DNA of 23,375 bases from JBDROU01 sp043809745 [NCBI: bacterium] (GTDB taxonomy: Bacteria; Elusimicrobiota; JBDRMW01), in assembly GCA_043809745.1 (NCBI GenBank), contig JBDROU010000069.1, positions 1 through 23,375 on the forward strand, given 5' to 3'. The notes beneath the pieces were generated by a model that worked only from the letters and a program-made list of their open reading frames with translations, ran no database searches and was not told where the DNA came from. Shown here piece after piece: positions 2,174 through 21,259 of this stretch. Positions within the stretch are counted from its first letter, which is position 1. Every line of letters starts with the position of its first letter. Made by a program: the position numbers and the translations under genes.

Positions 2174-2976
2174 TGTTTGAGGATATAAAAAATGTATTCA
2201 AAAGAGATCCGGCGGCCAAAAATATTTTGGAAGTAATACTTTGCTATCCAGGGCTGCATGCTATTTGGATTCACCGTATATCAAACAGGCTTTTTAAGAT
2301 TAAACTATATACTTTAGCGAGAATAATATCTCATATCTCTCGTTTTTTTACCGGTATAGAAATACACCCTGGAGCCAAAATTGGGAAAAGATTGTTTATC
2401 GATCATGGCATGGGAGTTGTTGTAGGTGAAACTACTGAAATCGGAGATGATTGTCTTATATATCAGGGTGTAGTCCTTGGAGGGACATCTATGTCCAAAG
2501 AAAAAAGGCATCCAACATTGCACAACAACGTTGTTGTCGGGGCAGGAGCGGTCGTCTTAGGCCCTATAATTATCGGCTCCGGGGCAAAGGTTGGAGCTGG
2601 ATCGGTGGTCTTAAATGACGTCCCGCCGGGAGCAACTGTAGTAGGGATTCCCGGGAGAATTGGAATTGGATTCAGCAATAAAGAAATGGTGGATTTAGAG
2701 CACGGTAAATTGCCTGATCCAGTTGCTGACGCAATTCGTTTTGTAATGAAAGAACAAAATGTTTTAGAAGGAAGAGTAAAGAAGATAGAATCTAAGCAAG
2801 GAATTGTCAGCCCTGCTGATAGATTTTTAGAAGAAAAGAAAAATGTAATTGAGAAGGAGTTCGAAATTCAAACTCTTTTAGATGAAAGAATAAAAGAATT
2901 AGAGGAAGAGGTTGAACAGATAAAGAAAGAGAAAAAAAGCTTTATCAAAATTGAGGACAAAGATCACGATAAATAA
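2173..2976 (+). CDS. cysE: Serine O-acetyltransferase with C-terminal coiled-coil extension
   Basis: Transfers acetyl from acetyl-CoA to L-serine to make O-acetylserine, the carbon acceptor for cysteine synthesis, in the cytoplasm. The left-handed beta-helix core is clear: [10 protein letters not shown] near residue 63, then the catalytic histidine in I-D-H-G-M-G (H78) and [10 protein letters not shown]. Later come the repeats [10 protein letters not shown] and V-G-A-G-S-V-V-L, and the closing V-V-G-I-P-G-R. Lacking the long N-terminal helical domain, it is the short Bacillus-like type, which also has Glu in I/V-E-I-H-P and L-P-D-P-V-A-D. After about residue 200 there is an unusual Glu/Lys-rich tail of about 65 residues, predicted coiled coil. 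Its ATG overlaps the preceding stop by one base, so translation is probably coupled. No cysteine synthase gene is in the window. Confidence 0.95.
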
Positions 2977-3020
2977 TATTTTCATCTTTGTGCAATTATA
3001 TGGTGTTTGTTTTATAGCAG

Positions 3021-3050
3021 TTGATAAGAGTGTTAAGAAATCAATATGAT
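3021..3050 (+). promoter_or_regulatory. Candidate promoter for the zinc-array membrane protein
   Basis: TTGATA at 3021-3026 and TATGAT at 3045-3050 are separated by 18 bases, about 76 bases upstream of the ATG at 3127. The start has AAAGG at 3116-3120. The box sequences are each one or two bases from consensus. Pattern evidence only. Confidence 0.4.
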
Positions 3051-3126
3051 TCGATTTTTTAAGTCATCTAGTTGCCTATCCTTGCAATATTTTTCAATTA
3101 ATCATAAAACTCTGTAAAGGTATTTT

Positions 3127-5178
3127 ATGCGCTGTCCAAAATGTAATAGTGAAATTAAAGGGTTTAAGGAATATTGTGTGAAATGCGGTGCCAGCGTAAA
3201 ACTTGAAATTCAGGATATTGCTAAAGATAACGAAAGTTCTGATAATATAGAAATAAATATAGACCCCGAAAAGGAGAAAGACGCGCATATAAAGTTCCCA
3301 GATCCTATAGAACTTGAAGAAATGGGAGAAGATATGCCACAAGAGGGAATTAAAAACAAAACACCGAAAGAAAGGGAAGTTCAAGTAGAACACCCTTCAT
3401 ATATCCTTGTTGATGCAGTAAAGGATGATCCTTTTCAGGATAAAGGATGGGGTCAGTGGGAAATAATCAAGGGAAAAATATATAAGCAGGAAGTTATAAA
3501 AAGTCCTGATGAAAAAAGTAAGTTTTATAAAATATTTAAAGATTGGATAAAAAAAATAGATAATGTGCATTGTGATGAAATAATGAGGAGAATAGGCATT
3601 CAGTCAGTTGTTGAGTACCCTTTTTATTACGTAAGCTTAAGTACAGTCCATGAAAAAAGAGAAGATGTAAAAGAGTTTTCCAGGCCTTATAAAGGTGAAA
3701 AGCTATTTAAGAAAACTGTTAGTATTGAGGAAAACTTGGACCTGTGGCCTTATAAATCTACAGATGATATAATGTTTTTGAAAAATCTGCAAAAAGTAGA
3801 TATTCCGGACTCCATGGAACAGATTAAGTGTCCGACCTGTTTGGGAAAAACCGTTAAGTGTAATTCATGCAGCGGTAAAAAGATTATTACATGTCCGGAT
3901 TGCCGCGGTATGAAGCGGATAACTTGCAGGGCTTGCAACTCTACCAAGAAAAGGACATGTCAAGAATGCAGTGGTAAAGGGAAAACCGGCAGCGCAGAAT
4001 GCTATCAGTGTAAAGGTACAGGTTCGGTGCCTTGTGAGGTATGCAGCAATGGCTACCTTCAGTGCGAAAAGTGCCATTCTAAAGGTCAAGTTCAATGCAA
4101 AAATTGCAATGGGGTAGGTTTTGAGAGCTGTAATATATGTGAAAATTCCGGGAAGATCCTTCAGGGTCTGCAATTTACTTCAAATTTCCAGATAAGCACC
4201 CAGGAGGCGGTGTTTGATAATTCTGCTATACCGACCAGAATTTTGCAGGCAGATAAAAAGATATTTACAAAAGACACAAACCTTGCAGAAGTAGTTGGTA
4301 AGAATTTTAATGAAAATGATTTTCTCAAAGGAGTTGCATACGAAGCCTTAAAAGAAAAAATAAAGCAATTTGTTAACGAAAGCCATGAAGAAAAAGATAA
4401 AGCATTAAAAATAAGGCGGCAGAAATTAAGTATAAAAAAGTATCCAATATGGCTGGTAAGATATTTATATGAGAACAGAGCATATGATTTGTATATAAAA
4501 ACAAACAGTTATGAAATTTATTATGACAGATCTCCATTCCAAATAATCGGAAAGAAAATGATATCCGAAGCCAAATGGGAGATGTTAAAATTAAATTTTT
4601 ATAAAACTGCGGCTTTGTGTTTGCGGGCAAGCGCTATAGCGGATTTTGCCGCAGTAGCAAATAGAATGTTGGGCAATATGAAAAATACAATGATTATTGT
4701 CTATAATTGCTCAGGAATTCTAGGAGGTGTAATAGCAGGTTTGTTTTGTATGCTGCATTTTTCTGCGATAGGTAAAAATAATTTTAACACCTTGGTGCCA
4801 AAACTAATATTTTATATTTTTGTCGTAATTATCGGTTATGTTTCCGGGGCCGCAACTAGAAGATTTGTAAAAATGAAACTGGATAAATATAAGAAAAGAC
4901 TTTTAGTCCCTGTTCTTACCGCTTTTTTTACTGTTTTGGTTTTATATTTTGGAGTATTTGCTCTAAGTGGATTTAATCCTTATATAATACTTGATCAGCG
5001 CCAGTTCAATAAGGAATTTTTTAAAGTTTTTCCATTTGGTATACATCCAACTTACATAAATGAGGAATATAATAATCTTAAAAGCATTATTGAAAAGTAT
5101 AAGAAAACGGGAGTAGATTTATCAATAGCTGAGAATGGATTGGCTGCGCAGGAGAAATTTAAATCAAAAAAAAAGTGA
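3127..5178 (+). CDS. Zinc ribbon and tandem CxxC-array membrane protein, function unknown
   Basis: A 683-residue multidomain protein that I cannot name. Residues 3-20 form a zinc ribbon (C3-P-K-C6 and C17-V-K-C20). An acidic linker and an unassigned region follow to about 230. Residues 235-338 hold ten C-x-x-C motifs at regular spacing (about 10-14 residues, several followed by G-x-G), resembling the zinc-binding region of DnaJ but longer: DnaJ has four motifs, and ten could bind about five zinc ions. After the array comes a mixed domain with Y-P-I-W-L-V-R-Y-L-Y-E at about 439-449, then three hydrophobic membrane segments at roughly 520-543, 559-577 and 594-613, and a soluble C-terminal tail of about 65 residues. 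There is no J domain and no N-terminal signal peptide, so the zinc part is probably cytoplasmic. A role in protein folding or membrane-protein handling would be a guess. Confidence 0.85.
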   Translation: MRCPKCNSEIKGFKEYCVKCGASVKLEIQDIAKDNESSDNIEINIDPEKEKDAHIKFPDPIELEEMGEDMPQEGIKNKTPKEREVQVEHPSYILVDAVKDDPFQDKGWGQWEIIKGKIYKQEVIKSPDEKSKFYKIFKDWIKKIDNVHCDEIMRRIGIQSVVEYPFYYVSLSTVHEKREDVKEFSRPYKGEKLFKKTVSIEENLDLWPYKSTDDIMFLKNLQKVDIPDSMEQIKCPTCLGKTVKCNSCSGKKIITCPDCRGMKRITCRACNSTKKRTCQECSGKGKTGSAECYQCKGTGSVPCEVCSNGYLQCEKCHSKGQVQCKNCNGVGFESCNICENSGKILQGLQFTSNFQISTQEAVFDNSAIPTRILQADKKIFTKDTNLAEVVGKNFNENDFLKGVAYEALKEKIKQFVNESHEEKDKALKIRRQKLSIKKYPIWLVRYLYENRAYDLYIKTNSYEIYYDRSPFQIIGKKMISEAKWEMLKLNFYKTAALCLRASAIADFAAVANRMLGNMKNTMIIVYNCSGILGGVIAGLFCMLHFSAIGKNNFNTLVPKLIFYIFVVIIGYVSGAATRRFVKMKLDKYKKRLLVPVLTAFFTVLVLYFGVFALSGFNPYIILDQRQFNKEFFKVFPFGIHPTYINEEYNNLKSIIEKYKKTGVDLSIAENGLAAQEKFKSKKK

Positions 5179-5216
5179 ATAATTTGTCTTAATTAGAGAT
5201 GTAAAAGGAAAAGAAG

Positions 5217-6338
5217 ATGAGTAAAAAGAGAATTATAATAAAGATAGGAACAAATGTAATTACTAATGCTGATGGTCTTTTAGATATGGATTTTATTGAG
5301 CGTTTATCCGGTGAGTTATCCGAAATTATATCAGGCGGTTGTGAGATAGTGCTAGTTAGTTCCGGCGCAATCGGAGCCGGTGCTGGCAAGTTGAATTTAA
5401 AAACAAGGCCGAAAGCACTTGCCCAAAAGCAGGCCATTGCTGCTGTAGGACAGGTGTTATTAATGCATGCATATGAGAAGTGCTTTGGCAGACATAACAT
5501 AAATGTTGCTCAGGTGCTATTAACACGAGAAGATTTGGAGATAAGATCCCGTTATTTAAATGCGCGCAATACCTTAAATACACTTCTTTCAATGAATATA
5601 ATTCCCATAGTGAATGAAAATGATACAGTATCAGTAGAAGAGATACAATTTGGAGATAATGATACTTTATCTGCAATAATAGCAGCAAAACTTGAGGCAG
5701 ATTATCTTATAATGCTAACAGATGTTGATGGGCTTTATATGGGTAATCCGAAACATGATAAAGAATGTAAGATAATTCAAAGAATTGAAAAAATTACTCC
5801 GGAACTGGAAAAATATATTTGCGGTAAATCCGGAAGTGTTTATTCTGTTGGTGGGATGTTAACTAAAGTTAGAGCTGCTAAGGCTGCGGTGTCTTCGGGT
5901 GTAACGGTTTTTATCGTCAATGGGAAAAAGTCCGGTGTAATAAAAGATGTTTTAGAAAATAAGAATATCGGGAGTTGTTTTGTCCCTGCTCAGCGCGGTA
6001 TCAAAGCAAGAAAAAGATGGATAGCATTTGGGGTCCGAATCAAAGGCAAGATATTGGTAGACAATGGCGCTGCTAAAGCAATTGTGCAGGGAGGGAAAAG
6101 TCTTTTGCCTTCAGGAATTATTGATATAGAAGGTAATTTCAGTATTGGTGACAGTGTATGCATAATTTCACCTGAAAAAGAGGAGATTGCTAGAGGGATA
6201 GTTTCTTTTAATAGTGATGAGATTTTGCAAATTAAGGGTAAAAAATCAAATAAGATAAAAGAGATACTGAATAAAGACGGTATAGAAGAAGTAATTCATA
6301 GGAATAATCTTGTTATAATATCTGATAAAGCTGGGTAA
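5217..6338 (+). CDS. proB: Glutamate 5-kinase with PUA domain
   Basis: Phosphorylates L-glutamate with ATP to give glutamyl-5-phosphate, the first step of proline synthesis, in the cytoplasm. The amino acid kinase domain occupies roughly residues 1-255. It starts with R-I-I-I-K-I-G-T-N-V-I-T, then has V-S-S-G-A-I-G-A-G and F-G-D-N-D-T-L-S-A, then M-L-T-D-V-D-G-L-Y, the typical nucleotide-binding and substrate-binding signatures. The C-terminal part from about 275 to 355 (I-L-V-D-N-G-A-A-K-A-I, then S-L-L-P-S-G-I) is the PUA domain of full-length ProB proteins. At 373 residues it is of normal length. AAGGAA at 5205-5210 precedes the ATG. proA is not adjacent; the gene lies between two membrane-protein genes of unrelated type, so it is probably not part of a proline operon here. 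Confidence 0.97.
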   Translation: MSKKRIIIKIGTNVITNADGLLDMDFIERLSGELSEIISGGCEIVLVSSGAIGAGAGKLNLKTRPKALAQKQAIAAVGQVLLMHAYEKCFGRHNINVAQVLLTREDLEIRSRYLNARNTLNTLLSMNIIPIVNENDTVSVEEIQFGDNDTLSAIIAAKLEADYLIMLTDVDGLYMGNPKHDKECKIIQRIEKITPELEKYICGKSGSVYSVGGMLTKVRAAKAAVSSGVTVFIVNGKKSGVIKDVLENKNIGSCFVPAQRGIKARKRWIAFGVRIKGKILVDNGAAKAIVQGGKSLLPSGIIDIEGNFSIGDSVCIISPEKEEIARGIVSFNSDEILQIKGKKSNKIKEILNKDGIEEVIHRNNLVIISDKAG

Positions 6339-6371: not shown

Positions 6372-8450
6372 GTGAAACAGGCAACAATATTTAAAGTTGT
6401 ACCTCCATTTCTTTGGTTGTTTATCCCGTTGCTTATATATATATATCATCTTTTTCCATCGATATACGGAGGGGACAGCCCGGAATTGATAACTTCAGGA
6501 GTAATTTTGGGTATTCCTCATGCCCCTGGTTATCCTGTATATTGTTTATTTGCAAAATTATTTTCAAATATCATTGTTTTTGGAAATAAAGCTTACAGGA
6601 TAAACACATTTTCTGCGGTTATTTCTTGCGTCAACATAGGATTACTATTTGTATTAATACGAAACACCATTAAAAACACATATATAGCTTTTCTTGTCGC
6701 CGTAATATTTGCTTTTTTGCCTATTCAATTTGAACAATCACTGGTTTCGGAAGTATTTGGATTAAATCTTCTTTTCTTTTTACTAATCCTGTTTATATTA
6801 ACAAAAGACTTTAGCAATAAGCATAAGGAACTATATCTGCCAAAATATTATTTGGCTTCCTTGCTGTTTGGATTAGGATTAGGCAATCATCATATATTGG
6901 TTTTTAGTTTGGTAGGATTTGCAATTCTAATTTTATCGGATGTCGGGAGAGAAAGATTTTTTAAACTTCTTTCAAAACCTATACTTTATTTATTCTGTTG
7001 CCTTGGTTTGAGTGTATATTTGTACTTACTTCTAAGAGCTCAATCCAATCCTGCTGTCAATTTTGGCGATCCAGATACAATTCAAAGATTATGGGCGGTT
7101 TTTACCCGTAAGGAGTTTGGTTCATTTGAACTGCATCCAACTGCTTTGCAAATAAGGACAGCGGACACACTTATTGGGCAGACATTGGGATATGTAGTAA
7201 CTTTGTTGAGAGGTTTTGGCTTGGTTGGTTTGCTGCTTATTTTTATAGGTTTTATAGTTGGCGCTGGGAATAGATTATTCCTCCCATTAATCGGAATCTT
7301 TCTGTTGGCGAGTCCGCTTTTTGTATTATACTCCAATCTGGCTCCTAACACTTTATCCTTATGGAGGCAGGAGCGTTTTTATTTATTTCCCGAAGCAATT
7401 CTATGTTTATTCCTTGCATTTTCGTTATTGGGTGTTGATAGGTTAATCTCAAAAATAATTAATACAGAGTACTTAAAAAAGGTAATTCTTTTAACCATAA
7501 CACTAATCATAATATTTTCTGGCGATAGAATTCATGGGAGCAGAGACAACTTTTATTTTCATGATTTCAGCAAAAATATTGTAAAAGGCGCAGAAAAAAA
7601 CGGCACACTCTTTTTAGATGAAATATTATTTGACGAATATGGCTCAGGATTGGCATATTTAACAAATGTACTTTACTTAAGGAGAGACTTAATAATTATT
7701 GCCAAAAGTGGGGCAATGTTTGAAAACATTTATGGAGAAGACTTTTTTGATTTAAGCTTTCCGGAAAAAGAAAAAAGGAAAAGGAATATAGAGAATAATT
7801 TGTTTAAGGCGGACAATTTGAAGCTGTGTATTGCAGTAATGGACAAAAACAGAATATCGACGCAAAAAGAGCTGATAAGTAACGGGCTTATATATAAAAC
7901 TTATTCTAAAGGAATAACCCCGTGGTTTGCATATAGCAGGCGGGAAATTATCTCAAAAAGGGCCTTGAATAATGATTATCCGACCAAATTGGTACTTGTG
8001 CATTATCCATATTTTCAGGGAAAGTTCAGTTTGGACATGAAGGATGCTTTAATGGCAGAAAAATATTTTAATGAGTGTTTAATGTATGGTTATGATCTTG
8101 AGTGGCTGCAGTTTAATATTGGATCTGTGTATTCTCAATTTGGAGATTTGAAGAGAGCTGAATATTTCTACAGCAATGCATTTAGGCTGGATCCATATTT
8201 TCCTAACACTTACTTTGGCTTGGGATATATTTATCTGACTAGAAATGAATATCCGACAGCTGAACGATATTTTTTAAAGTGTCTGGAATTAAATCCAAAT
8301 TTTAGTAAAGCTTATTATAATCTTGGTTTGATAAAATATAATTCAGGCAGAATTTCAGAAGCAAAATATTATTTTAATAAATACTTCCAATTTGAGCCTG
8401 AATCACCTCTTAAGAAAAGCATTGAAGATTTAGGTTTAGTTAGGAATTGA
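6372..8450 (+). CDS. DUF2723-family membrane glycosyltransferase-like protein with C-terminal TPRs
   Basis: A 692-residue inner-membrane protein. The N-terminus has a first membrane helix and then Y-G-G-D35-S-P-E38-L-I, followed by L-G-I-P-H-A-P-G-Y-P-V-Y. This is the hallmark of DUF2723, a family related to GT-C fold protein O-mannosyltransferases, which take sugar from a polyprenyl-phosphate donor; the acidic pair lies in the first outside loop. About ten hydrophobic segments follow to around residue 385. A soluble region comes next, and from about 555 to 690 there are at least three TPR-like repeats (for example Y-F-G-L-G-Y-I-Y-L and A-Y-Y-N-L-G-L-I-K-Y). It starts at a GTG with no evident ribosome binding site; there is no early in-frame ATG. 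Its 3' end overlaps the convergent GH5 gene by 11 bases. The acceptor and sugar are unknown. Confidence 0.88.
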   Translation: MKQATIFKVVPPFLWLFIPLLIYIYHLFPSIYGGDSPELITSGVILGIPHAPGYPVYCLFAKLFSNIIVFGNKAYRINTFSAVISCVNIGLLFVLIRNTIKNTYIAFLVAVIFAFLPIQFEQSLVSEVFGLNLLFFLLILFILTKDFSNKHKELYLPKYYLASLLFGLGLGNHHILVFSLVGFAILILSDVGRERFFKLLSKPILYLFCCLGLSVYLYLLLRAQSNPAVNFGDPDTIQRLWAVFTRKEFGSFELHPTALQIRTADTLIGQTLGYVVTLLRGFGLVGLLLIFIGFIVGAGNRLFLPLIGIFLLASPLFVLYSNLAPNTLSLWRQERFYLFPEAILCLFLAFSLLGVDRLISKIINTEYLKKVILLTITLIIIFSGDRIHGSRDNFYFHDFSKNIVKGAEKNGTLFLDEILFDEYGSGLAYLTNVLYLRRDLIIIAKSGAMFENIYGEDFFDLSFPEKEKRKRNIENNLFKADNLKLCIAVMDKNRISTQKELISNGLIYKTYSKGITPWFAYSRREIISKRALNNDYPTKLVLVHYPYFQGKFSLDMKDALMAEKYFNECLMYGYDLEWLQFNIGSVYSQFGDLKRAEYFYSNAFRLDPYFPNTYFGLGYIYLTRNEYPTAERYFLKCLELNPNFSKAYYNLGLIKYNSGRISEAKYYFNKYFQFEPESPLKKSIEDLGLVRN

Positions 8451-11186: not shown

Positions 11187-13283
11187 ATGAAACATAAAAT
11201 CATCAAAATTTCGCATATCTTATTTTTTTTAATAGCATTCATCTTATGTGAGCCATCCGGTAGAGGTTATGCCTCTATGCCTGCAGATGTGTTGGATGAT
11301 ATGTATGGAGAGCAGGTTGAAGTGTTAAATTCTCTAAATGAAAAACTTGATTATATAGAGAAAAAGATTAGAGGTTTTAATTCAAAGGGGGACTATATAT
11401 CATTTTACTTTGATCCAGCGTGGGAAGCAAAATTATCGCAGGGTTGGTTAAGAAGGCCAAAAGAACAACTTCCAAAACGGATAAATTGGATGAGGGAAAG
11501 GATAGTAGAATACAAAAAGTTAAGGGAAAAAGCAGTTGCTGATGTAAAAAATATTTTAACTGAATTGGAATCTAAAAAAGAAATTATCTCAAAGGGCGAA
11601 AAGAATATTCTTCTTAGGTGCGAGGATATTAGTGATAACCTAAAGATTTTAGAAAAACATTTTAATAATGCCGGTTTCAGGATGGACGAAATACTTCAGA
11701 GGCTAGATGAGGCTGATACTGTAATTGAAGGCTTTAATAAAAGAGTGGAGAAGAAGATCCAAGCATATAAGAGTTTAGCGGGAGAATTAAATAAGATAAA
11801 AGTAGATTTAGAAAAAATTAACGCTTCTGAAGAACCTAAGACGGTTTCAGAATATAAGTTGTATTTTAACGAATATAATTGCTTTGACACAGGAAAGGTT
11901 CTTAATAGATTAAACGACTATAAAGATTTTATAATACGAGAAGAGTATCTCCCAGTTAATCTTGAGCTTAATTCATTGATAAATGAAGTAAGTACTTTAG
12001 AAAGGGGTATTTATGCATTAGGTGATGAAATTAGAATCCGGCTTACGACTTCCTTTAGTGTGTATCTGAGAGATATGAAGTTAATGGGAGTAAGGATAGA
12101 AGATTATCCAAATTTTTCACTGAATGAGGTTTATTCTGAATCATTGATGGATGGTGAATTTATAGCTTTAAGCTTCAGTTTTATATCAAGGGAAGGAAGT
12201 GTAGATCATTTCCTTATTAGAACCAGCATTAATGGAAAATGGCAAAATGTTTTGGTAAATAATTCTATGCAAAAATCAGACATTCCTGAAAATTTAGACA
12301 GTAAAGACAATGGAAATACTGACGTAAGTAAAGATTATGATAATGAGGGTTTAGGTAAAACAAAATTGATAGAATTTCAATGGGTGCCAATAGCTGGAGA
12401 AATTTGTTCAATTTCTATTGTGGCAGTTGATCCGTCAGGGCACAGGACCAATAATCTATATAAAGAACCAATGACATTTTATTATTTAGGAAGATATAAG
12501 AAAGAAATTGCAAACGAGGTGCTAAGCAAATTTGTTGATTCATATAACAATAAGGATTGGAAAGGATACAGGAGTCTCTTTTTTGATGAGTCAGATCTTG
12601 CGGATAATATTATAAAAACTGGAAAAACAAATGCAGATAATACTCTTAAAACAAATCTGACCATTAGCTCGAAAAAGTATAATTTTTCCAGTGCAGAGGA
12701 TTGGGCTAAAGTGGTGTTTGTGCAGTATTTTGAGGGCGCTATAGCTGATATAAGAAATATTGAAACTTCAATCTTGTTCAGTATTAACCGCAACCGTGGT
12801 AAAATTAAAGATATTCAAAATGCTGATCGTCTAATGAAAGCGATGCCTCTTGCAGATAAGAAATACTTGGAAAAACGAAAAATGGCTTATATTACTGTAA
12901 AAAATGGAAGTAATAATTTATATCATGTAAATCCCAATGATATAACTTATAAGGGTTTTGATATATCAAAGAAAAGGAACAGCAGTGCTGAGGATGAGGT
13001 TGACTTGGTTTGTGGTTTTAATTCAGATTTAGGTGGTGTTTACAGTATTGATCTGGGTAAAAGGCGATTATGGGATATTAAATATGTTAATACGAGTGAT
13101 TTTGAAATGAGCAAATTCTTTAAGAGGCGGGTAACCCTTAATCATGTATATGCTGTAAAGACAAAAGAGGATAAGTTTGCTTTGATATTTGTGAAGAAAA
13201 TAAACAATCAATACGGGCCTGACAGTTTTATCCAGTATGATTACCTGTATCAATCTTCAGGGCAAAATTATTTCAAATACTAA
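11187..13283 (+). CDS. Exported coiled-coil protein with NTF2-like region, function unknown
   Basis: A 698-residue protein I do not recognise. Residues 1-30 look like a signal peptide: basic start M-K-H-K, hydrophobic core H-I-L-F-F-L-I-A-F-I-L, and a possible cleavage after G-Y-A-S. The cysteine in I-L-C lacks the usual small residue before it, so a lipoprotein is less likely. Residues about 35-290 are charged and helical with coiled-coil character. Residues about 320-430 look like a beta sandwich (V-A-V-D-P-S-G-H-R near the end). From about 435, V-L-S-K-F-V-D-S-Y-N-N-K-D-W resembles the opening helix of NTF2/SnoaL-like domains. The C-terminus is mixed. It probably acts in the periplasm or outside the cell. 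AGGA at 11174-11177 is a modest ribosome binding site. No neighbour explains it. Confidence 0.8.
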   Translation: MKHKIIKISHILFFLIAFILCEPSGRGYASMPADVLDDMYGEQVEVLNSLNEKLDYIEKKIRGFNSKGDYISFYFDPAWEAKLSQGWLRRPKEQLPKRINWMRERIVEYKKLREKAVADVKNILTELESKKEIISKGEKNILLRCEDISDNLKILEKHFNNAGFRMDEILQRLDEADTVIEGFNKRVEKKIQAYKSLAGELNKIKVDLEKINASEEPKTVSEYKLYFNEYNCFDTGKVLNRLNDYKDFIIREEYLPVNLELNSLINEVSTLERGIYALGDEIRIRLTTSFSVYLRDMKLMGVRIEDYPNFSLNEVYSESLMDGEFIALSFSFISREGSVDHFLIRTSINGKWQNVLVNNSMQKSDIPENLDSKDNGNTDVSKDYDNEGLGKTKLIEFQWVPIAGEICSISIVAVDPSGHRTNNLYKEPMTFYYLGRYKKEIANEVLSKFVDSYNNKDWKGYRSLFFDESDLADNIIKTGKTNADNTLKTNLTISSKKYNFSSAEDWAKVVFVQYFEGAIADIRNIETSILFSINRNRGKIKDIQNADRLMKAMPLADKKYLEKRKMAYITVKNGSNNLYHVNPNDITYKGFDISKKRNSSAEDEVDLVCGFNSDLGGVYSIDLGKRRLWDIKYVNTSDFEMSKFFKRRVTLNHVYAVKTKEDKFALIFVKKINNQYGPDSFIQYDYLYQSSGQNYFKY

Positions 13284-14126: not shown

Positions 14127-14531
14127 ATGGATGATATTGGCGAAGTTATAGCAGTTAAAGATAATGTAATAAAAATTCAGTTTTTACGAAAACCGAGTTG
14201 TAAGCGCTGCGGTTTATGTATGACTTGTGAAGATGAAAAAAAAATGGTGCTTGAGTTGAATAATTCTATAGGTGCTGAGGTTGGGGATAATGTAAAAGTG
14301 AGCGTTCCGCAAGGAAGTTTACTTTTTGCTTCTTTTCTAGTTTATATAATGCCTCTTTTAGGATTTACTCTGGCAATAGTTATAAGTCAGTATTTTTTAA
14401 GGGATCGCCAGGAATTAGTTTTATTAATCGGTTTTATCGGCCTATTTTCAGCATTTGCGGTAATTAAGTATTTTGATTATTACTTTGAAAGAAAACAAAA
14501 AATGAATATGGTGGTTGAGAAAATAAAATGA
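14127..14531 (+). CDS. rseC: RseC/MucC-family membrane protein
   Basis: A 134-residue protein with the RseC layout. A short N-terminal domain (I-G-E-V-I-A-V) carries a cysteine cluster, C25-K-R-C28-G-L-C31-M-T-C34, followed by V-G-D-N-V-K-V-S-V-P. Two membrane helices lie at about 66-92 and 96-116. RseC is known from the SoxR-reducing and sigma-E systems and is frequently encoded beside rnf genes, where it is thought to help Rnf function or assembly. The four cysteines suit binding of a metal or iron-sulfur cluster. Its stop overlaps the rnfC start (ATGA at 14528-14531), strong evidence that it belongs to the rnf operon. No clear ribosome binding site is seen before its ATG. The family call is firm; the symbol is by family membership. 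Confidence 0.85.
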   Translation: MDDIGEVIAVKDNVIKIQFLRKPSCKRCGLCMTCEDEKKMVLELNNSIGAEVGDNVKVSVPQGSLLFASFLVYIMPLLGFTLAIVISQYFLRDRQELVLLIGFIGLFSAFAVIKYFDYYFERKQKMNMVVEKIK

Positions 14532-15853
14532 AATGCAGAAGCTTTAGCGGTGGAGTTCATCCGTCGATAGCAAAAGAATTAACCCAGGATATACCTATTA
14601 AAGTTATTCCTATCCCTAATGAGTTGATAATCCCGTTAAGTCAGCATACGGGTGCTCCATGCAAGCCGCTTGTTGCAAAAGGAGATAAAGTTTTGAAGGG
14701 CCAAAAAATAGGTGAAAGCGAGGCATTCATTTCCGCGCCTGTTCATTCACCTACTTCTGGAGAGGTGGTTGATGTTAAACCTCACATTCATCCTCTTGGA
14801 CAGAAGATAAACTCTGTTTTCATTAAGCCGGATATGAAGGATGAGTGGGTGGATAATCTCCCGAAGGTTTCAAATATTGATGATGTCAGCACAGAGGAGA
14901 TAGTAAAAAAGGTAAAGGAAGCCGGTATTGTTGGATTAGGGGGAGCAGCATTCCCAACTCATGTAAAGCTTTCACCTCCTAAAGACAAGAAGATCGATAC
15001 GCTATTAATAAATGCGGTAGAATGTGAACCTTATCTGACTGCCGATTATAGATTGATGCTGGAAGAAAAAGAGAGAATACTGATAGGTATAAAATTGCTG
15101 CTTAAAGGGTTGGGTATTAATAATGCGTATTTAGCAATCGAGGACAATAAACCTAAGGCAATAGAGTTGATGAGAGAAGCATTAAAGAAAATTACTGATA
15201 TAAATTTAGTCATACTTAAAACAAAATATCCTCAAGGTTCAGAAAAGCAGCTAATAGAGGCTATTACAAAAAGAAAGGTTCCTGTTGGCAAACTGCCGCT
15301 TGATGTTGGAGTGGTTGTCCAAAATGTTGGTACGGCTAAAGCAGTTGCAGATGCGGTGTTAGAGGGTAAACCGCTTATTGAAAGGGTTTTAACCGTTACA
15401 GGTTCAAACATAAAGAATCCAGGAAATTTCTTAGTGAGAATAGGAAGTAAATTTTCCGACATTATTGAATTTTGCGGCGGTCCTTACGAAGAATTAAGCA
15501 AGGTAATTATGGGCGGGCCCATGATGGGCATTGCCGTTTCCAGCTTAGATGTCCCGGTTATTAAAGGTACTTCCGGTATATTGCTCCTAAGTAAAAAGGA
15601 AGTGAAATATAATGAACCAGGGCCCTGTATAAAGTGCGGTAAATGCTTGCAGGTTTGTCCAATGGCGTTTGCGCCAAGCAGGTTTGTGGAAGCCGGCGAG
15701 ATTAGAGATTACGATCAAGCGATGAAGGATAATATATCAAGCTGTATGGAATGCGGTTCGTGCAGCTATGTATGCCCTGCTCGAAGGCCTATGGTGCAGT
15801 GGATAAAAGTTGTAAAATCGCAAATTCAAAAAAAATCTAAAGAAAAGAAATGA
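14528..15853 (+). CDS. rnfC: Rnf complex subunit C (NADH/FMN-binding, two [4Fe-4S] clusters)
   Basis: Peripheral subunit of the Rnf ferredoxin:NAD+ oxidoreductase, on the cytoplasmic face, where NAD+ is reduced. The opening F-S-G-G-V-H-P, the lipoyl-like segment S-A-P-V-H-S-P-T-S-G, and the flavin/NADH-binding loop G136-L-G-G-A-A-F-P-T-H with N-A-V-E-C-E-P-Y-L-T are all present. Two ferredoxin motifs follow: C367-x2-C370-x2-C373-x3-C377-P and C406-x2-C409-x2-C412-x3-C416-P. The 441-residue length is that of the compact type, without the long Ala-rich C-terminal repeats of the gammaproteobacterial protein. Its start overlaps rseC and its stop overlaps rnfD, each by four bases, implying coupled translation. 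Confidence 0.97.
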   Translation: MKCRSFSGGVHPSIAKELTQDIPIKVIPIPNELIIPLSQHTGAPCKPLVAKGDKVLKGQKIGESEAFISAPVHSPTSGEVVDVKPHIHPLGQKINSVFIKPDMKDEWVDNLPKVSNIDDVSTEEIVKKVKEAGIVGLGGAAFPTHVKLSPPKDKKIDTLLINAVECEPYLTADYRLMLEEKERILIGIKLLLKGLGINNAYLAIEDNKPKAIELMREALKKITDINLVILKTKYPQGSEKQLIEAITKRKVPVGKLPLDVGVVVQNVGTAKAVADAVLEGKPLIERVLTVTGSNIKNPGNFLVRIGSKFSDIIEFCGGPYEELSKVIMGGPMMGIAVSSLDVPVIKGTSGILLLSKKEVKYNEPGPCIKCGKCLQVCPMAFAPSRFVEAGEIRDYDQAMKDNISSCMECGSCSYVCPARRPMVQWIKVVKSQIQKKSKEKK

Positions 15854-16788
15854 TGCAGCAAAAAGATTCTAATATTTTAATAGTAGATACATCTCCTCAT
15901 ATCTTTATTGGTCAGACAACCGAATCAATTATGCGCGATGTCGTAATTGCCTTAATACCCGCAGCCGTTGCAAGCTTCTTCTTTTTTGGTATCGGCGCAT
16001 TGATAGTTTTAACTGTAAGTATAATCGGTTGCCTTGGCACAGAATGGATATTTTGCTTAATAACTAAAAGGCCGAATACACTAAAAGATACCAGCGCGCT
16101 TGTTACAGCGTTATTATTTGCTTTTTGTTTACCTTCTTCAATTCCTTGGCCAATGGTTTTATTTGGTTCAGTTGTAAGTATATTGATTGGCAAACTTATT
16201 TTTGGCGGTCTCGGATTTAATCTTTTTAATCCCGCGCTAGTAGGAAGAGCTGTGCTCATGGCTTCTTGGCCGCAGGAGATGACTACCTGGCCTAAACCCG
16301 GGAAAATCTTTTTGGGTGCTGTTGATACTCTAACCCAGGCTACTCCTTTAGCAGACCTTAAGGGATATTCCGCAAGCTACATGGATTTATTCCTGGGGAA
16401 CTGCGGAGGAAGCCTTGGCGAGACTTCTGCTTTAGCGCTTCTGATAGGCGGTTTATATTTAGTATTTAGAGGGGTTATAGAATTAAAAATACCGATGACC
16501 TTTATTGGTACAGTTTTTGTTTTTAGTTTTATCTTAAAGGTTGATCCTATTTATTCGATACTTGCCGGAGGGGTGTTTCTTGGCGCAATTTTTATGGCAA
16601 CGGATTATGTTACTTCACCTATAACATCTAAAGGTAAAATAATCTTCGGGATTGGATGCGGGATTTTAACTGTACTCATAAGGGCATACGGTGGATTCCC
16701 AGAAGGTGTGTGCTATGCTATACTTTTTATGAATGGGCTTGTGCCGCTAATTGATAAATTTACACAGCCTAAAATATTCGGAACATAA
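15850..16788 (+). CDS. rnfD: Rnf complex subunit D (membrane flavoprotein)
   Basis: An integral membrane subunit of about ten helices, homologous to NqrB, that carries a covalently bound FMN and takes part in ion translocation. The start S-P-H-I-F-I-G-Q-T-T-E-S-I-M matches RnfD, as do G-G-L-G-F-N-L-F-N-P-A-L-V-G-R and the late A-T-D-Y-V-T-S-P. The flavinylation site is expected at T165 in D-T-L-T-Q-A-T-P-L-A. The family consensus is S/T-G/A-A-T, so Gln stands where Gly or Ala is common. FMN attachment requires an ApbE-type transferase, which is not encoded in the window. The 312-residue length is normal. The gene overlaps rnfC and ends four bases before rnfG. Confidence 0.96.
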   Translation: MMQQKDSNILIVDTSPHIFIGQTTESIMRDVVIALIPAAVASFFFFGIGALIVLTVSIIGCLGTEWIFCLITKRPNTLKDTSALVTALLFAFCLPSSIPWPMVLFGSVVSILIGKLIFGGLGFNLFNPALVGRAVLMASWPQEMTTWPKPGKIFLGAVDTLTQATPLADLKGYSASYMDLFLGNCGGSLGETSALALLIGGLYLVFRGVIELKIPMTFIGTVFVFSFILKVDPIYSILAGGVFLGAIFMATDYVTSPITSKGKIIFGIGCGILTVLIRAYGGFPEGVCYAILFMNGLVPLIDKFTQPKIFGT

Positions 16789-16792
16789 TTCA

Positions 16793-17356
16793 ATGAAAAC
16801 TATTATTAATTATACCCTTAGACTAACTATAGTCAGCATAGTAGCTTCCGGCTTGCTTGCTTATGTATATCAGACTACATATGAACGGATCAAAGAAAAC
16901 AAAGAAAAAGAAAAAGTTGAGAAGATCAAAAGTGTATTGCCGGAAGTTGATAATATAAACGAAGTTGAGCGTAATGGCAAGATTATATATCAGGGGGTTT
17001 ACGGAGGAGAATTAAAAGGAACGGTAATTGAAGTTTCTGAGCAAGGTTATGCTGGCCCGGTAAAACTGCTTGTTGGGGTAGATACTAAAGGTAGGGTTAT
17101 TGCAATTAATGTGCTTTCCCATAAGGAGACTCCAGGTCTTGGGAATAAGATAGAGGATCAATGGTTCAAGGATCAATTCAAGAAAAAAGATTATGAAGGG
17201 GTAACATTGAAAAGAGATTCTCAAAGTAATTCTCAAGACGCGGTTTCCCAGGCGTCAGGTTATGACCGGGGCATAGATGCTATTACCGCTGCAACAATAT
17301 CTTCAAGGGCTGTTGTAAAGGCCGTTAGGAAAGCCTTAAGTGAGTTTAATAAATAG
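16793..17356 (+). CDS. rnfG: Rnf complex subunit G (FMN-carrying)
   Basis: A 187-residue subunit with one N-terminal membrane helix (I-V-S-I-V-A-S-G-L-L-A-Y-V-Y) and an outward-facing FMN-binding domain. The segment H-K-E-T-P-G-L-G-N-K-I and the flavinylation motif I-T-A-A-T168-I-S-S-R-A-V are the family hallmarks; FMN is attached to the threonine through phosphoester linkage by ApbE in known homologues. An in-frame ATG at 16751 would add 14 residues inside rnfD. The ATG at 16793 is preferred because it lies just after the rnfD stop and gives the usual N-terminus, M-K-T-I-I-N-Y-T-L-R-L. The rnfE start lies 24 bases downstream. Confidence 0.95.
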   Translation: MKTIINYTLRLTIVSIVASGLLAYVYQTTYERIKENKEKEKVEKIKSVLPEVDNINEVERNGKIIYQGVYGGELKGTVIEVSEQGYAGPVKLLVGVDTKGRVIAINVLSHKETPGLGNKIEDQWFKDQFKKKDYEGVTLKRDSQSNSQDAVSQASGYDRGIDAITAATISSRAVVKAVRKALSEFNK

Positions 17357-17380
17357 AGATCACTCAAAAAGGGGAGCAGT

Positions 17381-17977
17381 GTGAAAACGCCGTTATATAC
17401 ATTATTAAATGGTATTTTAAGAGAAAATCCAGTATTAAGATTGATGATAGGGCTCTGCCCGCTTCTTGCAGTTTCTACTACAGCGCTGAACGCTCTTGGA
17501 ATGGGATTGGCTGCGACATTCGTTCTTGTATCCTCCAATATAACCGTTAGTTCCTTAAGGAGAGTAATCCCGAGTGGAATAAGAATTCCGATATTCATAA
17601 TTATTATATCTACATTTGTGACTACGGTCGATTATGCAATGATGGCATATTTTCCAGAATTGCATAAAGCATTAGGCGTGTTCGTTCCGTTAATTGTTGT
17701 GAACTGCATTATACTTGGTCGAGCAGAGGCTTTTGCCTACAGGAATGGTGTTATCCTATCTATTCTGGATGCGCTTGGGATGGGTATAGGCTTTATTGCT
17801 GCAATACTCTTGCTTGGCGCTATTAGGGAGATTTTAGGTAATGGCACCGTTTTTGGAATCACACTCTTTACTGAAAATTTTAAACCCATGCTTATCATGA
17901 TTCTTCCTCCGGGCGCATTTTTAGTCCTTGGATTTTTGATGAGCGGATTAAATTTTATTACCAGGAAAGGCAGCTAA
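17381..17977 (+). CDS. rnfE: Rnf complex subunit E (integral membrane)
   Basis: A 198-residue, six-helix subunit homologous to NqrD that forms the membrane core with RnfA. Known structures place a shared [2Fe-2S] cluster between the two subunits, bound by cysteines within half-helices. L-G-L-C-P-L-L-A-type sequence is seen here as I-G-L-C-P-L-L-A, and V-N-C-I-I-L-G-R-A-E-A-F-A gives the second conserved cysteine. The start is GTG at 17381 with a strong GGGGAG ribosome binding site just upstream, within a 24-base gap after rnfG. Only two bases separate its stop from rnfA. Confidence 0.96.
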   Translation: MKTPLYTLLNGILRENPVLRLMIGLCPLLAVSTTALNALGMGLAATFVLVSSNITVSSLRRVIPSGIRIPIFIIIISTFVTTVDYAMMAYFPELHKALGVFVPLIVVNCIILGRAEAFAYRNGVILSILDALGMGIGFIAAILLLGAIREILGNGTVFGITLFTENFKPMLIMILPPGAFLVLGFLMSGLNFITRKGS

Positions 17978-17979
17978 AT

Positions 17980-18570
17980 ATGGCGTCCGAACTTTTTCTT
18001 ATATTCTTTGCGGCAATGATAGTTAATAATATATTGCTTATAAGGTTTTTAGGTTTATGCCCTTTCTTTGGAGTTTCAAATAAAATAGAAACAGCATTAA
18101 GCATGGGATTTGCTGTGATATTCGTAATGGTGATGGCAACAACAGTGAGTTGGATAATTTATCACTATATCCTTGAACCATTTAATTTGGTTTTTTTGAG
18201 AACAAGTTTTTTTATATTGATAATTGCTTCATTAGTACAGCTTGTAGAGATATTCATGAAAAAGATGTTCCCAATACTTTACCGCGCATTAGGTATTTAT
18301 CTGCCGCTTATAACTACTAATTGCGCAATACTTGGCACAGCATTTCTTACTATAGATTATAAATATAATATAGCAGAGTCAGTTATTTTTTCATTAGGAG
18401 CATCATTAGGCTTTATTATTGCAATAGTTATATTTGCAAGTTTGAAGGAAAAGATAGAATATGCGCCTATTCCGGAAGCCTTCAAGGGATATCCTATATC
18501 ATTTATTCTTGCAAGTCTTATGTCGCTTTCGTTTTTAGGATTTGTGGGAATGTTTGGGTTGCAACTATAA
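17980..18570 (+). CDS. rnfA: Rnf complex subunit A (integral membrane)
   Basis: A 196-residue, six-helix subunit homologous to NqrE and paralogous to RnfE. The conserved cysteine segments are L-G-L-C-P-F-F-G-V-S in the first part and T-T-N-C-A-I-L-G-T-A in the middle, the positions that bind the membrane-embedded iron-sulfur cluster with RnfE. The gene starts two bases after rnfE and ends two bases before rnfB, so expression is certainly from one message. Length and motifs are normal. Confidence 0.96.
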   Translation: MASELFLIFFAAMIVNNILLIRFLGLCPFFGVSNKIETALSMGFAVIFVMVMATTVSWIIYHYILEPFNLVFLRTSFFILIIASLVQLVEIFMKKMFPILYRALGIYLPLITTNCAILGTAFLTIDYKYNIAESVIFSLGASLGFIIAIVIFASLKEKIEYAPIPEAFKGYPISFILASLMSLSFLGFVGMFGLQL

Positions 18571-18572
18571 TA

Positions 18573-19367
18573 ATGGTAATTACAGCAATTATTAGTTTTG
18601 GTTTAACTGCATTATTTTTGGGTATATTATTATCTCTGGCTAATAAGTTTTTTGCTGTAAGAGATGATCCCAAGGTTGAAAGTATACTTGGCTGTTTGCC
18701 GGGAGTGAATTGCGGGGCTTGCGGATATCCTGGATGCAATGGCTATGCTGTTGCCGTTGCTGGTGGTGAAGCTGAGGTTAACAGGTGTACTGTTGGCGGA
18801 AACGAAACAGCCAAGACAATAGCAGGTATTATGGGTGTTGATGCTAAGGCTGCAGAAAAGTGTGTTGCTAGACTTTTTTGTCAAGGCGGAAAGAGCAAAA
18901 GTTCAGAGAAGTTCGAATATAGAGGGATAATCTCTTGCCAGGCGCTCAATATTGTTTCTGGAGGGAATAAGAGCTGTTCATACGGTTGTTTAGGAATGGG
19001 TGATTGCGTGCGCGTATGTCCTTTCGGAGCATTATACATGAATGAGGACAAGCTTCCTGTTGTAATTGAAGAGAAGTGTACCGCTTGCGGTCGTTGTGTC
19101 CAAACATGTCCAAGAACATTGTATGAATTATTGCCTGCCGCAAAAAGGGTCGTGATCGCATGCCGCTCATTTGATAAGGGAGCTGATACAAGAAAGGCTT
19201 GTAAGGTTGGTTGTATAGCATGCAAGAGATGCGAGAAAGCTTGTCCTGAGAATGCCATTACTGTAGAAAATAACCTGGCTAAGATAAATTATTCAATTTG
19301 CAAAAATACTGCTGCTTGTGTTGGAGTATGCCCCCAAAAAACTATTATGAAATTCCCGCCGTTGTAA
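18573..19367 (+). CDS. rnfB: Rnf complex subunit B (multi-cluster ferredoxin subunit)
   Basis: A 264-residue subunit that accepts electrons from reduced ferredoxin. One N-terminal membrane helix is followed by the Fe-S domain with C41, C47-G-A-C50-G-Y-P-G-C55. From about residue 140 there are four further cysteine motifs ending in C-P: C-x3-C-x5-C-x3-CP, C-x2-C-x2-C-x3-CP, C-x3-C-x2-C-x2-C-x3-CP and C-x5-C-x3-CP. This is consistent with two double-cluster ferredoxin-like units, so several [4Fe-4S] clusters besides the N-terminal one. That resembles the longer RnfB of anaerobes rather than the short proteobacterial form. It is the last rnf gene; no clear terminator follows. Confidence 0.96.
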   Translation: MVITAIISFGLTALFLGILLSLANKFFAVRDDPKVESILGCLPGVNCGACGYPGCNGYAVAVAGGEAEVNRCTVGGNETAKTIAGIMGVDAKAAEKCVARLFCQGGKSKSSEKFEYRGIISCQALNIVSGGNKSCSYGCLGMGDCVRVCPFGALYMNEDKLPVVIEEKCTACGRCVQTCPRTLYELLPAAKRVVIACRSFDKGADTRKACKVGCIACKRCEKACPENAITVENNLAKINYSICKNTAACVGVCPQKTIMKFPPL

Positions 19368-20725: not shown

Positions 20726-20749
20726 AAGAATTGCCAGCAGTTAATTCTT
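20726..20749. terminator. Weak hairpin between convergent genes
   Basis: AAGAATT at 20726-20732 and AATTCTT at 20743-20749 can pair around a ten-base loop, between the MFS stop and the 3' end of the minus-strand gene. The stem is short and AT-rich, and no clean T-run follows on the plus strand, so termination activity is doubtful. Confidence 0.2.
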
Positions 20750-21259
20750 CTTAAAGTCTGTGTTGCAAAATGCACAGGAAAGCCAACTTTCTTCTATCTC
20801 CTCTTTGCATTTTGAACATATTAATTTAATCTGGGTTCTGCAATAAGGGCAGAATTTGAAATTCGGTTTAATATCTTTTGCGCAGTTAAAACACTTGGTT
20901 AATGATACTGTTTGCGATAGATCTTTAATATTCGCTAATACATTACTAGAAGAAATATTCCTTTTTAAAACGATCAATCCTTCATGAAGTTCTTTTAATC
21001 CGCTTCCAATAAATCTATGCGTCTGCCCGGGTGTTTTCAATTCAAGTCTTTTTTGAAGTGTATCGTCATAGTGAAATCCTTCAATATCATCCAATGGTAT
21101 GGGAATGTCAATCGAACCTAATGCTCTGTCGAGTTTAGTTGGCATGAACAGTAAGCCGTCCAGCCTAAGGGATAGAGTTCCTGCTTTAGCAATCATTTTA
21201 CCGAAAAAATAGGTAACCTTACATTCTGCAATCACTTCCTGTTTTATTTCCTCTGCCAT
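20741..21259 (-). CDS. GRAM/PH-like domain protein with C-terminal double zinc ribbon
   Basis: A 172-residue cytoplasmic protein. Residues about 10-100 look like a GRAM or bacterial PH-like domain: A-G-T-L-S-L-R-L-D-G-L-L-F-M-P, then I-P-L-D-D-I-E-G, then L-E-L-K-T-P-G-Q-T-H-R-F-I-G, the usual strand order with a C-terminal helix. Residues 123-165 hold four C-x-x-C pairs (C123/C126, C137/C140, C148/C151, C162/C165), a double zinc ribbon. Such domains often bind lipid or protein partners and act as adaptors, but I cannot give a function. The ATG follows an excellent GGGAGG ribosome binding site, and a sigma70-type promoter with tandem repeats lies upstream. It is convergent with the MFS gene. 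Confidence 0.82.
   Translation of the reverse strand: MAEEIKQEVIAECKVTYFFGKMIAKAGTLSLRLDGLLFMPTKLDRALGSIDIPIPLDDIEGFHYDDTLQKRLELKTPGQTHRFIGSGLKELHEGLIVLKRNISSSNVLANIKDLSQTVSLTKCFNCAKDIKPNFKFCPYCRTQIKLICSKCKEEIEESWLSCAFCNTDFKKN

Follow-up and report, generated by a model that had tools for sequence, protein, structure and literature searches.

A small family of predicted membrane proteins with a DnaJ-like CxxC array, and mirror-symmetric motif spacing in such arrays

The stretch of DNA analysed here (the window, 23,375 nucleotides) carries on its forward strand, at positions 3127-5178, an open reading frame with an ATG start that encodes a protein of 683 amino acids. Its CxxC motifs begin at residues 3 and 17, which form an N-terminal CxxC-x10-CxxC zinc ribbon (residues 3-20, positions 3133-3186, from Pfam and the family alignment), and at residues 235, 245, 256, 267, 278, 292, 303, 313, 324 and 335, which form an array. 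These twelve motifs compare with a mean of 1.1 and a maximum of 7 in 20,000 composition-preserving shuffles of the window protein. A pre-array domain delimited by the family alignment (residues about 118-232, positions 3478-3822) leads into the first arm of the array, with five CxxC by motif count and alignment (residues 235-281, positions 3829-3969), followed by a central turn measured at 10 residues (positions 3970-3999) and a second arm of five, by motif count and the mirror tests described below (residues 292-338, positions 4000-4140); the spacers between motifs are 6,7,7,7 | 10 | 7,6,7,7. The rest of the protein consists of a post-array domain, again from the family alignment (residues about 339-475, positions 4141-4551), a segment that lines up with a weak TPR-like region in relatives (about residues 476-520, positions 4552-4686), three hydrophobic segments (residues 530-548, positions 4714-4770; residues 556-574, positions 4792-4848; residues 592-610, positions 4900-4956), and a C-terminal tail (positions 4957-5175) in which the family alignment reveals a pattern like 'FPxG ... 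L...YxxTGVD'. The loop ahead of the third hydrophobic segment (residues 575-591) contains eight Lys or Arg residues and one Asp or Glu.

No Pfam or NCBIfam model scored above its cut-off against the whole window protein, and the full-length match to a known family that the initial annotation of this sequence had named as grounds against its own reading was found in neither collection. Residues 60-234 gave no Pfam match, and the post-array domain gave none above cut-off, either in the window protein or in the family. The isolated array scored best with DnaJ_CXXCXGXG (PF00684; 16.3 bits versus a cut-off of 32.7), while the N-terminal ribbon reached 17.6 bits with Zn_Ribbon_1 (cut-off 25). The HPD motif of J domains is absent from the window protein, and no J-domain match appears in the Pfam tables. 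AlphaFold2, run without an alignment, returned models of low confidence (pLDDT 41.7 for the array, residues 228-345, and 33.1 for residues 120-515). In most respects the initial annotation agrees with these results: the ten regularly spaced CxxC motifs that it placed at residues 235-338 are borne out by the motif count and the shuffles, its separate zinc ribbon corresponds to the CxxC pair at residues 3-20 with its sub-threshold Pfam match, its three membrane helices to the three hydrophobic segments, and its remark that there is no J domain to the missing HPD. Its suggestion that the gene has its own promoter-like sequence holds weakly: one such site, scoring 10/12, lies at 3021-3050, but the scan of positions 2900-5300 returned 15 sites against 9.9 +/- 2.7 in shuffled sequence.

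Several other genes in the window deserve mention. Positions 6372-8450 encode a 692-residue protein that combines a TMEM260-like O-mannosyl-transferase domain (5.9e-22) with TPR repeats at its C-terminus. The 698-residue protein of positions 11187-13283 has an apparent signal peptide, judged by eye, and matched no Pfam family at 1e-3. Positions 14127-19367 carry an RseC/MucC-like gene (Pfam PF04246) and, after it, an apparent Rnf electron-transport operon; the names of the Rnf genes other than that of RnfB are our assignments from the sequences. On the reverse strand, positions 20741-21259 encode a 172-residue protein in which an unassigned domain is followed, at the C-terminus, by a double zinc ribbon (DZR at 30.2 bits; cut-off 27.3). 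Among the best 80 of 350 relatives, the RnfB closest to that of the window is from Elusimicrobia bacterium UBA9639 (G001), at 59% identity, with the others at 51% or less, so that the window probably comes from this phylum or one close to it; neither the single-protein nor the alignment search found a match to the array family in the UBA9639 genome.

The array protein belongs, by pairwise and profile matches along its length, to a family of 15 full-length proteins, the window protein included, with 12 in genomes of an Elusimicrobia-titled phylum and one each in a Planctomycetota-titled and a Spirochaetes-titled phylum; the phylum names, here and in all counts below, are those of the record titles and not of a tested classification. 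Thirteen of the 15 make up alignment A2, whose other members are 18-23% identical to the window protein; the two left out are L104, which is cut and close to L105, and the relative from the Spirochaetes-titled phylum (L271, L313). In the Elusimicrobia-titled phylum, 9 of 247 genomes matched the single window protein at E <= 1e-6, and 15 of 294, in a sample overlapping the first, matched an eight-row alignment at E <= 1e-10; 12 of these 15 genomes account for family members and three for a match to the array only. Matches in the Planctomycetota-titled phylum (42 of 149 genomes) lie mostly over the array only, with one spanning both flanking domains (G628) and another the pre-array domain (G609). 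Matches came from 3 of 120 genomes in the Spirochaetes-titled phylum, including one of nearly full length (G888, E 9.9e-106), and from 2 of 119 in the Aminicenantes-titled phylum, the latter partial and at or near the array. The family alignment matched 0 of 193 genomes of the Omnitrophota-titled phylum, in a search run without a positive-control genome; the one match of the single protein there, among 285 genomes, turned out to be a DnaJ with HPD. Likewise, the single protein matched 6 of 20 genomes of many phyla at E <= 0.001, always over a short part of the array region, and seven of the eight loci from these twenty-genome and Omnitrophota searches are DnaJ with HPD. A scan of genome contigs for close relatives of the window protein yielded 18 pattern-matching stretches and no relative. 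In viral contigs, a DNA pattern of four CxxC matched at least 119 stretches; 17 of the 80 loci listed carry an open reading frame with a real array, and none of the viral array frames at these 80 loci matches along the family length. No title on this protein was seen among the matches listed in the literature on Elusimicrobia and DnaJ. The family is small and undescribed, falls outside the Pfam and NCBIfam models searched, and resembles a part of DnaJ without being DnaJ.

The 13 aligned members share a constant order of pre-array domain, array, post-array domain and hydrophobic segments. In the pre-array domain W207 is invariant and R178 nearly so; the array has 20 cysteines, of which 16 never vary and the remaining four are conserved to 90% or more. 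By a strict CxxC count, the two arms of the array are equal in 11 of the 13 members (nine with 5+5, L101 with 4+4 and L102 with 6+6), and counting one degenerate motif each in L114 (6+6) and L135 (5+5) makes them equal in all 13. In the other twelve aligned members the central turn has 16-20 residues (nine members), 22 (L102), 7 (L101) or 4 (L135); as read from the alignment, L101, which has no long turn, would have lost the central turn along with the innermost pair. Three members (the window protein, L102 and L114) have the N-terminal ribbon, which is an optional feature, and TPR_2 and TPR_14 each match one of the 13. HPD is absent from 12 members; the single HPD in L114 (residue 368) lies C-terminal to the array, not N-terminal, and was rejected as a J domain. 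Also dropped was the idea that the pre- and post-array domains are duplicates of each other (profile comparison, p 0.66).

Twelve of the 13 members have three hydrophobic segments and L102 has four. The loop between segments 2 and 3 holds 3-8 Lys or Arg residues in 11 of 13 members, eight of them in the window protein, and that between segments 1 and 2 holds one or two, again in 11 of 13. By the positive-inside rule these loops would put the large N-terminal part, including the array, in the cytosol; the tail might then be exported, a placement that we hold loosely and against which the lysine-rich C-terminal ends of several relatives argue. The tail pattern is common to most members, to varying degree, and is not recognisable in L102, L114 and L135.

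Nine related loci were compared with the window over stretches of 6.7 to 19 kb. The neighbours of the array gene in the window have no relatives there, by comparison of open reading frames and by tblastn at 1e-5, which leaves uncontradicted the earlier statement that the gene has no functional neighbour; the phyletic profile and the neighbourhood comparison that had been proposed as checks thus gave a full-length family in three titled phyla and no window neighbour shared with these loci. Across the nine, no neighbouring gene is conserved, be it a chaperone gene, a protease gene or any other. Sharing among them is local only, in two pairs and in ATPase genes: L108 and L111 have three genes in common, which we take to be ispF-, cysS- and rlmB-like, and L110, L111 and L112 have ATPase genes in common that are presumably of the ABC type. 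The second pair is L113 (12045-13014) and L114 (5330-6292), in each of which a two-CxxC protein, with 37.6% mutual identity, is encoded directly downstream of the array gene.

The equal arms of the family raise the matter of how the motifs pair, which was examined through the spacing of CxxC arrays inside and outside the family. Even-numbered arrays with at least six strict CxxC motifs were used, each distinct spacer vector once (31 of 89 vectors, with an odd motif number, were left out), and the summed asymmetry was compared with that obtained when the off-centre spacers were permuted within each array. None of 10,000 permutations was as symmetric as the broad set of 58 even vectors, which includes viral loci; the effect was weaker, 65 of 10,000, in the 41 vectors of this set that have no long off-centre spacers, spurious reading frames included. 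For the 40 vectors from genome and plasmid loci, mirror asymmetry was 259 against a mean of 468.5, with 0 of 20,000 permutations as low, whereas translational symmetry, which is the expectation from tandem duplication, was at chance in the same vectors (477 versus 468.8; 11,395 of 20,000). In 22 of these 40 no other spacer is as long as the central one, as against 4.5 expected. The effect extends beyond the family, both in all 33 outside vectors (252 versus 461.0; 0 of 20,000) and in the 22 of them that have at most ten motifs (10 of 20,000), in a collection of arrays found mainly with family profiles, which favour arrays of similar size. Taking one array per 45%-identity cluster, a step that removes relatedness only partly, 29 arrays outside the family gave 244 versus 445.9, again with 0 of 20,000. 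Taken singly, 7 of 21 informative cluster arrays ranked in the top 10% for symmetry against their own permutations (about 2.1 expected), and strong asymmetry (30-46) is seen in 5 of the 29 representatives. Exact mirrors are seen in L130 (11,7,7,9|10|9,7,7,11) and L289 (7,9,18,7,9,9|16|9,9,7,18,9,7), and a near-mirror in L310 (7,7,17,16,11|10|11,16,17,8,7).

Such mirror spacing points to nested antiparallel pairing, in which an insertion between two rungs of one arm has its counterpart in the opposite arm. In DnaJ, zinc is held by motifs 1-4 and 2-3, and a five-site nesting in the window protein would extend these two sites. Judged from spacing, motifs 1-10, 2-9, 3-8, 4-7 and 5-6 probably pair, and five zinc sites are predicted: C235/C238 with C335/C338, C245/C248 with C324/C327, C256/C259 with C313/C316, C267/C270 with C303/C306, and C278/C281 with C292/C295. 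There is good reason to expect both the nested pairing and the five zinc ions.

Compared with the PDB, the family profile matched, over the array region only, the DnaJ cysteine-rich domain (1exk, 1.5e-5), BSD2 (6ekb, 8.1e-4; 9ci1, 3.2e-3) and EMB2737 in 8xku (1.5e-3), and, within that region over a span of 27-30 profile positions, anti-TRAP (3lcz, 8.8e-4; 2bx9, 3.9e-3). PF00684 and PF25436 (BSD2_CRD) each match 5 of the 13 aligned members at E <= 0.01, and the NCBIfam model RtpA matches four (best E 7.5e-4). The array resembles that of DnaJ in its CxxCxGxG-type knuckles, its predicted zinc tetrads and the placement of motifs on each side of a longer central spacer, two per side in DnaJ. DnaJ, however, is not known as a membrane protein, it has a J domain, which the window protein lacks, and its four motifs and two zincs come with spacers of about 13,18,10. 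These spacers were found in five of the seven DnaJ control proteins measured; eight loci were given, and L095 was left out because its HPD and four CxxC are not in one frame. With no HPD, and with the wrong motif number and spacers, the window protein was rejected as a type I J-protein.

The 1exk and 6ekb matches instead place the array with J-less DnaJ-like cysteine-rich domains of the BSD2/ZnJ kind. To our knowledge, ZnJ2, ZnJ6, FIP and ORANGE all lack a J domain, and ORANGE has membrane spans; ORANGE carries four CxxCxxxG repeats. A J-less CxxC array is also known from animal SSUH2/ssu-2, where conserved regions flank it on both sides; it has fewer motifs than the array here, and no such membrane region is known there. 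In PMC4428491, the four CxxC of DnaJ are described as binding two zinc ions, and BSD2 as having no J domain; ZnJ2 appears in PMC5818400 as a DnaJ-like zinc protein with four motifs. BSD2 and ZnJ2 thus resemble the window protein in having a DnaJ-like array without a J domain and differ from it in having four motifs rather than ten; since the similarity is confined to the array, the window protein was rejected as a BSD2 orthologue. The tethering of a zinc-finger domain to the membrane resembles that of ZnJ6 and FIP. PMC7865324 presents ZnJ6 as a DnaJ-like protein of the thylakoid membrane; it has a transmembrane domain, binds zinc and holds clients. FIP, according to PMC5915565, is membrane-anchored and binds FtsH5. 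Yet ZnJ6, FIP and ORANGE are plastid proteins, and ZnJ6 and ORANGE have four motifs each. The statement in the initial annotation that DnaJ with its motifs always comes with other domains is therefore wrong or overstated as a contrast, J-less DnaJ-type zinc fingers being known already (BSD2, PMC4428491), and its surprise at a J-less array was overstated in view of the 42 Planctomycetota-titled genomes with matches. The window family is a variant of these known proteins.

Long arrays without a J domain are also visible by eye in Planctomycetota-titled, haloarchaeal and Streptomyces proteins, whose flanking domains differ from those of the family. As a set, the arrays outside the family are mirror-symmetric; the haloarchaeal L001 is mirrored, L002 is not, and the Streptomyces arrays have an odd motif count. 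Two-sequence profiles on the plasmid side make the haloarchaeal post-array region weakly similar to that of the family (p 0.0034) and give no support to the Streptomyces one as a relative (p 0.49), and because the post-array profiles differ in this way we do not claim one family for all array proteins. By eye, the Planctomycetota-titled array proteins vary widely in length and flanks; one of them (L144 in G606) has very long CxxC arrays, with 25 motifs in the part seen, among other repeats. Several of the non-family proteins, L129, L131, L137 and L140 among them, have apparent N-terminal signal peptides by eye, and some CxxC arrays may be exported. On Halobacterium salinarum plasmids, a 12-motif array frame at L002 (3896-4708) has no gene in the incomplete plasmid gene table, and the same is true of an array frame at L008 (near 3001-3408); transposase genes lie nearby.

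Starting from the observed motifs, family, layout and hydrophobic segments, we propose, with a probability of roughly 45%, that the window protein is a membrane-anchored, DnaJ-zinc-finger-like holdase or adaptor working on the cytosolic side. The two arms of five CxxC would run antiparallel around the central turn, motif k and motif 11-k together holding one zinc, to give a rigid five-rung hairpin between two family-specific domains. At the membrane it would most likely bind polypeptides that are unfolded, nascent or not yet assembled, or else one dedicated partner, so that the protein, though lacking a J domain, would serve as a holding chaperone or an adaptor like the chloroplast DnaJ-like zinc proteins. 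This agrees with the zinc-rich, chaperone-like or protein-interaction rod at the membrane that was suggested at the outset, which fits the DnaJ and BSD2 profile matches, the three membrane segments and the mirror-symmetric spacing with its implied pairing into five sites. Binding of clients, like the sidedness of the tail, is put forward hesitantly. The proposal is supported by ZnJ6, which is membrane-associated, zinc-binding and client-holding (PMC7865324); the array alone is no proof of chaperoning, because ZnJ6 holds citrate synthase independently of its zinc fingers (PMC7865324). Against the proposal also speaks that no chaperone or protease gene is a conserved neighbour at the nine loci.

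The main rival, which we consider unlikely though a serious contender, is that the ladder serves as a rigid recognition rod that docks, at the membrane, on one specific partner. Anti-TRAP is a small zinc protein that recognises TRAP, and the short anti-TRAP (3lcz, 2bx9) and RtpA profile matches speak for such a role, as do the conserved domains flanking the array and the wide differences in length and flanks that are seen by eye among Planctomycetota-titled array proteins; however, the anti-TRAP match covers only 27-30 profile positions, and no partner gene is conserved beside the array gene at the nine loci. Quite improbable, by comparison, is a thiol-redox protein whose CxxC motifs switch between the dithiol and the disulfide state. 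ZnJ6 is reported to have oxidising activity (PMC7865324) and DnaJ a weak thiol-reductase activity (PMC4428491), which would be precedents, but array cysteines of which 16 in 20 are invariant and the rest at least 90% conserved are what is expected for structural zinc, and the Rnf-like genes suggest an anaerobe, which would have less need for such chemistry.

We regard as still less probable a zinc store or sensor, in which the array would buffer or measure cytosolic zinc and signal through the membrane to the tail. Twelve CxxC, three membrane segments and a conserved tail would suit that role; the mirror layout, on the other hand, points to structural sites, and the nine loci show no conserved neighbour gene. 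That same layout makes it very unlikely that the motifs are independent zinc knuckles, with neighbours pairing (1-2, 3-4 and so on) into a flexible string instead of a hairpin. Such a string agrees with the regular period of about 11 residues, but it does not predict the mirror symmetry that is strong over the array set, translational symmetry is absent, and each arm contains five motifs, an odd number.

The CxxC array is a widespread bacterial module that Pfam and NCBIfam cover poorly. If, as we think has slightly less than an even chance of being right, the zinc domain of DnaJ is the smallest form of an extensible nested zinc ladder, rungs would be gained and lost in pairs (4+4, 5+5, 6+6 and longer), mirror spacing would be a signature readable from any genome, and the family described here would be the membrane-anchored, client- or partner-binding version, with ladder length setting its reach. 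The mirror rule is likely to be of most interest to specialists: it offers a simple sequence test of motif pairing, tells how many zinc ions an array of any size should bind, and unites scattered hypothetical proteins in one structural class related to the DnaJ zinc domain. The membrane family, for its part, provides a defined and testable bacterial case of the kind of protein that has been studied in chloroplasts in the papers cited here.
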